Origin: Bacteroidota bacterium
GTDB taxonomy: Bacteria; Bacteroidota; Ignavibacteria; UBA10030; UBA8401
Assembly: GCA_020052095.1 (NCBI GenBank)
Contig: JAGVPT010000118.1
Location: 1 to 32,276 of the forward strand
Length of the DNA: 32,276 nt
Direction of reading: 5' to 3'
Shown here: positions 24,453 to 25,533 of the stretch, in pieces
Layout: each line of letters opens with the position of its first letter
Position numbering within the stretch: position 1 is the stretch's first letter
Made by a program: the position numbers and the translations under genes
Notes under the pieces: generated by a model
What the model was told of the DNA's origin: nothing
Seen by the model: only the letters and a program-made list of their open reading frames with translations
Databases searched by the model: none

Positions 24453-24490
24453 ACCACGAGCACGATTAACAGTCATCGATAATAGCCATT

Positions 24491-24859
24491 ATGATTAACA
24501 AAAACGCAACACACCGGCGGACGAAAATCAAGGCGTACATCCGCAAGAAAATCAGCGGCACCGCCCAACGTCCGCGCCTGACCGTTTATCGAAGTCTGGG
24601 AAACATTTACGGACAGATTATTGACGACGTGGCGAGGAAGACACTCGTGGAAGCATCGTCAATCTCGAAAGAAGTGAAGGCAGAACTGGCCACCGCGAAA
24701 TCAAAAAAAGAGAAGAGTGCGATTGTCGGGAAGATTCTCGCCAAGAAGGCCCTCGAGAAAAATATTAAGAACGTCGTGTTCGACCGCAACGGATTATTGT
24801 ACCACGGCCGTGTGAAAGCGCTGGCAGATGGAGCGCGAGAAGGCGGATTGAAGTTTTAA
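24491..24859 (+). CDS. rplR: 50S ribosomal protein L18
   Basis: L18 binds 5S rRNA with L5 and L25. The 122 residues match the family. The basic N-terminus [21 protein letters not shown], the segment [20 protein letters not shown] and the C-terminal [21 protein letters not shown] are signatures. The ATG at 24491 lies in a weak AT-rich inverted repeat (ATAAT/ATTAT at 24479-24483 and 24488-24492), and no Shine-Dalgarno sequence is visible. Unusually, the next gene is a tRNA (24893-24963) instead of rpsE. Confidence 0.97.
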
Positions 24860-24892
24860 ATAAATTTTGCAGGGGAAGGATCGCCTTACCAC

Positions 24893-24963
24893 TGTCGGGT
24901 CGTCTAATGGCAGGACAACGCCCTTTGGAGGCGTCTGTAGAGGTTCGAATCCTCTCCCGACAG
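24893..24963 (+). tRNA. tRNA-Gln (anticodon TTG) inside the spc operon
   Basis: The acceptor arms TGTCGGG (24893-24899) and CCCGACA (24956-24962) pair perfectly, with discriminator G24963. The D-arm GTCT...GGAC, the anticodon arm ACGCC-CTTTGGA-GGCGT (anticodon TTG) and the T-arm AGAGG-TTCGAAT-CCTCT complete a 71-nt cloverleaf. CCA is not encoded. It lies between rplR (33 bases) and rpsE (66 bases), same strand, with no promoter or terminator visible. It therefore seems to be cut out of the r-protein mRNA. A small hairpin (24873-24890) ends two bases before it. Confidence 0.96.
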
Positions 24964-25029
24964 CAAAAAAAATCTGCCCCGCCTCAGCGAGACAGAGAAT
25001 TTTATCAATGAAGTGAATGAGGTTTACCC

Positions 25030-25533
25030 TTGGCACGAATAAGGACAAGCGAACTCGACCTGAAAGACAAGCTAGTGCACATCAACCGCGTCGCAAAGGT
25101 CGTCAAAGGCGGACGCAGGTTCAGTTTTAACGCCATCGTCGTTGTAGGCGATGGGAACGGGCACGTTGGTATCGGTCTTGGGAAAGCAAATGAAGTCGCC
25201 GATGCAATCGCCAAAGGCATTGATGACGCTAAGAAGAATGTTGTGAAGGTCACCATCGTCAACGGAACGATTCCGCACGAAGTTATCGGCAAGTTCGGCG
25301 CAGGAAAAGTTTTGCTAAAACCGGCCTCGCCGGGGACGGGATTAATTGCTGGCGGCGGCGTTCGGGCACTGTTGGAATCCGCAGGCGTGAAGGATATCCT
25401 CACCAAACAAATGGGATCATCCAACCCTCACAATGTCGTGAAGGCGACGCTTGCCGGATTGTTGAGCCTCCGGGACGCTCGCGCAGTCGCGCAAGAGCGG
25501 GGCATGTCTCTCCAGGAATTGTTCCAGAACTAA
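25030..25533 (+). CDS. rpsE: 30S ribosomal protein S5
   Basis: S5 works with S4 in decoding accuracy and is the site of spectinomycin-resistance changes. The start is TTG 25030 with GAGG (25019-25022) 7 bases upstream, giving [20 protein letters not shown]. The 167 residues match the family. The double-stranded-RNA-binding-like fold is visible in [20 protein letters not shown] (24-43), and the end includes [21 protein letters not shown]. The gene is separated from rplR by a tRNA-Gln, so its translation cannot be coupled to rplR as in usual spc operons. Confidence 0.97.

Follow-up and report, generated by a model that had tools for sequence, protein, structure and literature searches.

Some tRNA genes lie on the same strand within clusters of translation-machinery operons. 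Thus, four tRNAs (tRNA-Thr, Tyr, Gly and Thr) precede tufB in the tufB operon, and a tRNA-Trp is part of the secE operon (PMC8046335). A tRNA may also share its transcript with a protein gene, as in the secG-leuU pair of E. coli, whose joint transcript is described as a substrate of RNase P (Mohanty and Kushner 2008, as cited in PMC3985628). The canonical spc operon has no tRNA between rplR and rpsE in the operon table of PMC1924603.

The window analyzed here, a stretch of 32,276 nucleotides from a Bacteroidota bacterium of the class Ignavibacteria, carries a tRNA-Gln(TTG) gene precisely at this junction, referred to below as the slot. The window itself begins with a tRNA-Thr and a tRNA-Trp called by ARAGORN. 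The locus resembles the tufB and secE operons in having a same-strand tRNA gene inside a cluster of translation-machinery operons, but the tRNAs there accompany tufB or fall between operons, whereas the tRNA-Gln of the window is nested in the core of the spc operon, with a ribosomal-protein gene before and after it. As for secG-leuU, a tRNA would share its transcript with a protein gene. However, leuU is located downstream of secG, whereas the tRNA of the window has ribosomal-protein genes on either side, which its release would separate. The gene order around the slot is that of the canonical spc operon, with S8, L6, L30, L15 and SecY encoded at their usual places, and the operon is normal except for the tRNA. 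Literature searches, mostly over openly accessible papers, turned up no description of a tRNA in the rplR-rpsE junction, and the arrangement is apparently an undescribed form of the known mixed tRNA-mRNA operon. The features of the junction are the following.

24491 to 24859, plus strand: rplR (L18), from the list of open reading frames; TIGR00060, 125.8 bits; the stop codon ends at 24859
24860 to 24892, plus strand: spacer of 33 nt separating rplR from the tRNA; its hairpin is weak and not conserved
24893 to 24963, plus strand: tRNA-Gln(TTG), 71 nt, supported by ARAGORN, RF00005 and covariation
24925 to 24927, plus strand: anticodon TTG at position 33 of the tRNA, from ARAGORN
24964 to 25029, plus strand: 66 nt between the 3' end of the tRNA and rpsE; a GAGG near 25018 resembles a Shine-Dalgarno sequence
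25030 to 25533, plus strand: rpsE (S5) with a TTG start, from the list of open reading frames; TIGR01021, 220.1 bits

The whole gap between rplR and rpsE reaches 170 nt, whereas it mostly spans 15-40 nt in relatives devoid of the slot tRNA (15-36 nt at the slot-less junctions of the f5 type). A tRNA and protein genes that share one strand, short gaps of 33 and 66 nt and an arrangement kept in relatives fit a mixed tRNA-mRNA operon. An earlier note, made from the letters of the window, had proposed a complete tRNA-Gln(TTG) on the same strand between rplR and rpsE, at a boundary normally occupied by a short gap and without visible promoter or terminator. The tRNA and its place were borne out: the gene is recognized by both ARAGORN and RF00005, and the bacteria examined outside the lineage lack a tRNA at this boundary. 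A consensus scan of the gap reveals neither promoter nor terminator on the plus strand, in a lineage that such a consensus covers poorly.

The identity of the gene is supported by several lines of evidence. On the plus strand, ARAGORN calls a tRNA-Gln at 24893-24964 with anticodon TTG, the last base of the call lying beyond the discriminator, and the RF00005 match at 24893-24963 on the same strand scores 60.9 bits for a gathering score of 29 (E 5e-11). The terminal pair is U-A (U1-A72 in standard tRNA numbering), the discriminator is G and CCA is not encoded. The gene thereby combines the RF00005 score, the conserved UUG anticodon, and the weak U-A terminal pair with discriminator G by which a bacterial tRNA-Gln(UUG) is recognized. 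Among 65 distinct tRNA sequences, 99.5% of the cloverleaf stem cells are paired, and compensatory changes on both sides are found at many stem pairs, such as 2-69, 3-68, 29-39 and 47-63. The TTG anticodon is present in 64 of these 65 sequences, the terminal pair is U-A in 63 and A-U in two, and the discriminator is G in 54 and A in 11. Since CCA is encoded at only 7 of 104 loci, its post-transcriptional addition is needed in most of them.

One slot tRNA (L186, G092:C46:24847-24917) displays a tRNA-Gln body with a GTG (His) anticodon resulting from one base. The same genome also contains a normal tRNA-His and a tRNA-Gln(CTG), and no TTG tRNA-Gln was found in it. The GTG anticodon is probably a base error in this metagenome-assembled genome (MAG), otherwise a decoding oddity.

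The genome of the window is a draft MAG of 281 contigs, 98.8% complete, containing 42 RF00005 matches, for which ARAGORN provided anticodons in all cases but one weak match (46.1 bits). The earlier note had called for a count of other tRNA-Gln genes, and none was found among these 42 matches of the draft MAG. As the expected tRNA-Ala(TGC) and tRNA-Ile(GAT) were likewise not found in it, a second tRNA-Gln could be missing from the assembly. The slot tRNA-Gln(UUG) is thus probably, though not certainly, the main or only tRNA-Gln of this genome. Glutaminyl-tRNA synthetase and GatB are both encoded, and the RNase Z matches are all below the family cut-off. A link between the slot tRNA and the charging route was considered and rejected, the slot tRNA occurring in genomes with and without an above-cut-off match for glutaminyl-tRNA synthetase.

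Comparing the junction across related genomes had also been suggested in the earlier note, and rpsE regions were collected from the family, the order and the class of the genome of the window as well as from named genomes. Within the order, the slot tRNA is kept in 57 of the 86 genomes with a readable slot, and the empty slots (29 out of 29) all belong to family f5. One further slot of the order (L021) contains a partial tRNA interrupted by NN in the assembly. The signature of the D-arm and anticodon of the slot tRNA is found in 58 of 98 genomes of the order, with a single match each except for two genomes with an additional CTG version, and in 143 of 294 genomes of the class. In the class genomes outside the order that have this signature and for which both coordinates are listed, the tRNA directly precedes rpsE, in the same orientation, in 63 cases out of 63. 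The named Ignavibacteria and Melioribacteraceae records carry a tRNA in the same slot and strand, and no tRNA occurs within the stretch fetched around rplR-rpsE at the Bacteroidia and Calditrichia loci. An assembly artefact is ruled out by the many independent assemblies, single-contig genomes included.

On a tree of L18 and S5 with 177 rows, a two-protein tree in which deep branches are weakly supported, the state of the slot changes 7 times versus at least 47 times with shuffled labels. The simplest reading, short of proof, would be one ancient gain followed by several losses, and the comparison across genomes indicates that the arrangement is real, ancient and vertically inherited rather than a local insertion. 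Lineages lacking the slot tRNA are f5, f7, f12, f9 and f22. In family f10, two genomes (loci L304 and L305) house a tandem of tRNA-Gln(TTG) and tRNA-Gln(CTG) in the slot, the CTG isoacceptor being apparently born by duplication in place. In two genomes of genus g145 (L302 and L303), the tRNA-Gln(TTG) that occupies the slot, AGTCCCATGGTGTAATGGTAGCAC..., differs strongly from the usual one and has apparently replaced it in place. The slot retains a tRNA-Gln even as the sequence turns over. In the one f5 genome read (G046), a proteobacteria-like tRNA-Gln(TTG) is located outside the slot (L299, C33:258021-258092) and a tRNA-Gln(CTG) is also present elsewhere, a set consistent with loss of the slot tRNA after replacement.

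The route of expression was approached through the flanking sequences. The tRNA starts 3-8 nt past the rplR stop at 14 of 77 distinct junctions, so that any private promoter there would have to lie within rplR. The Bacteroidota-type -7 promoter motif, TANNTTTG, occurs upstream of the tRNA at 1 of the 77 junctions, and no conserved promoter motif was found upstream of the slot tRNA among them. Together with the gap devoid of promoter and terminator, the tight spacing between rplR and the tRNA and the rarity of the -7 motif make transcription with the operon the most likely route, and the slot tRNA is likely expressed by co-transcription and release by RNase P. On the minus strand, a terminator-like hairpin with a T-run is located at 24973-24997, inside the gap between the tRNA and rpsE; such sites, on the wrong strand, are about as frequent as in shuffled sequences and were discarded.

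The earlier note had further described a small hairpin at 24873-24890, just upstream of the tRNA. This element did not hold up: it is a fold of 3+2 bp (z -1.2, within chance), absent or different in relatives, and the 55 upstream leaders of relatives fold with a mean z of -0.4 and a median of 0.0. A protective or regulatory role for an upstream hairpin was therefore rejected as a general feature, leaders being on average equivalent to shuffles. Among relatives, the spacer upstream of the tRNA ranges from 3 to 106 nt and the downstream one varies widely. No conserved structure was detected on either side of the slot tRNA, where spacers fold on average no better than shuffles, and both observations speak against an elaborate conserved regulatory structure.

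It is quite probable that the tRNA-Gln(UUG) gene of the window is functional and has travelled with the spc operon as a stable passenger by vertical descent. It is probably the main tRNA-Gln gene of its genome, if not the only one, and is most likely transcribed with the operon, the tRNA being released by RNase P. The tRNA would be transcribed from the spc operon promoter, its 5' end would be freed by RNase P and its 3' end trimmed by endo- or exonucleases before a CCA-adding enzyme attaches CCA. Because processing of a co-transcribed tRNA cuts the RNA, as is established for cases such as secG-leuU, a split of the transcript is likely here. The piece carrying rplR would end at the tRNA or shortly before it, and the piece carrying rpsE would acquire a new 5' end, so that translation of rpsE would have to start from the ribosome-binding site of this gene itself; the earlier note had suggested that rpsE could thereby be uncoupled from rplR. 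The main benefit would probably be an abundant production of the tRNA, coupled to the making of ribosomes.

Two other readings concern the nature and the expression of the element. That it would be a pseudo-copy, or an mRNA structure resembling a tRNA, rather than a working tRNA is suggested by its position alone and is barely credible in view of the intact cloverleaf, the fixed anticodon, the compensatory changes and a genome in which no other tRNA-Gln was found. A promoter of its own inside the rplR reading frame, making part of the tRNA supply independent of the operon, is rather improbable. One sigma-70-like match at 24466-24495 could be invoked, although it is upstream of rplR and close to chance expectation; the consensus scan, in this poorly covered lineage, shows no promoter-like site on the plus strand between 24500 and 24892, and the 77 junctions of relatives share no motif.

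Other readings deal with the meaning of the place. The tRNA may be a frozen neutral insertion: it would have entered a strongly expressed operon a single time and, once no other copy was left, have become hard to lose, the place being devoid of benefit. This is a plausible reading, if somewhat short of the balance of probability; it is compatible with expression through the operon and differs from the preferred explanation on the benefit only. One ancient state with several losses agrees with it, as do the replacement tRNA-Gln(TTG) and the tRNA-Gln(CTG) found elsewhere in the f5 genome, as expected if replacement precedes loss, whereas duplication and replacement in place suggest that the slot is at least good for a tRNA-Gln. 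The split could also act as a regulatory device, or the coupling of glutamine-tRNA supply to ribosome synthesis could have been selected. Excision of the tRNA would then be a selected cut, rplR and upstream genes versus rpsE-rpmD-rplO-secY gaining differing stability or translation, or the tRNA processing capacity feeding back on ribosomal-protein expression. Such a selected cut is unlikely. Retention over many families argues for it, and slot-bearing genomes of the order mostly start rpsE with TTG or GTG, as does the window at 25030 (TTG), whereas slot-less f5 genomes use ATG after their short gap. However, TTG or GTG starts also occur in some tRNA-less lineages and ATG in some tRNA-bearing ones, so this link may be a habit of one lineage; the lack of conserved structure on either side, the variable spacers and repeated tRNA losses without other visible change also argue against it. 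A class-wide processing site, at which maturation of the sole tRNA-Gln would obligatorily split the spc transcript, setting the ratio of the rpsE-secY half to the rplR half or their relative timing and thereby linking ribosome assembly to the maturation of the tRNA, is a long shot.

Few gene strings of bacteria are as conserved as the spc operon, and a tRNA is held inside it over many families. The lineages without the slot tRNA, set against those that retain it, provide a natural experiment on whether splitting a ribosomal-protein transcript matters. For the organisms that keep it, the arrangement would make all or most glutamine decoding dependent on the transcription of ribosomal-protein genes.
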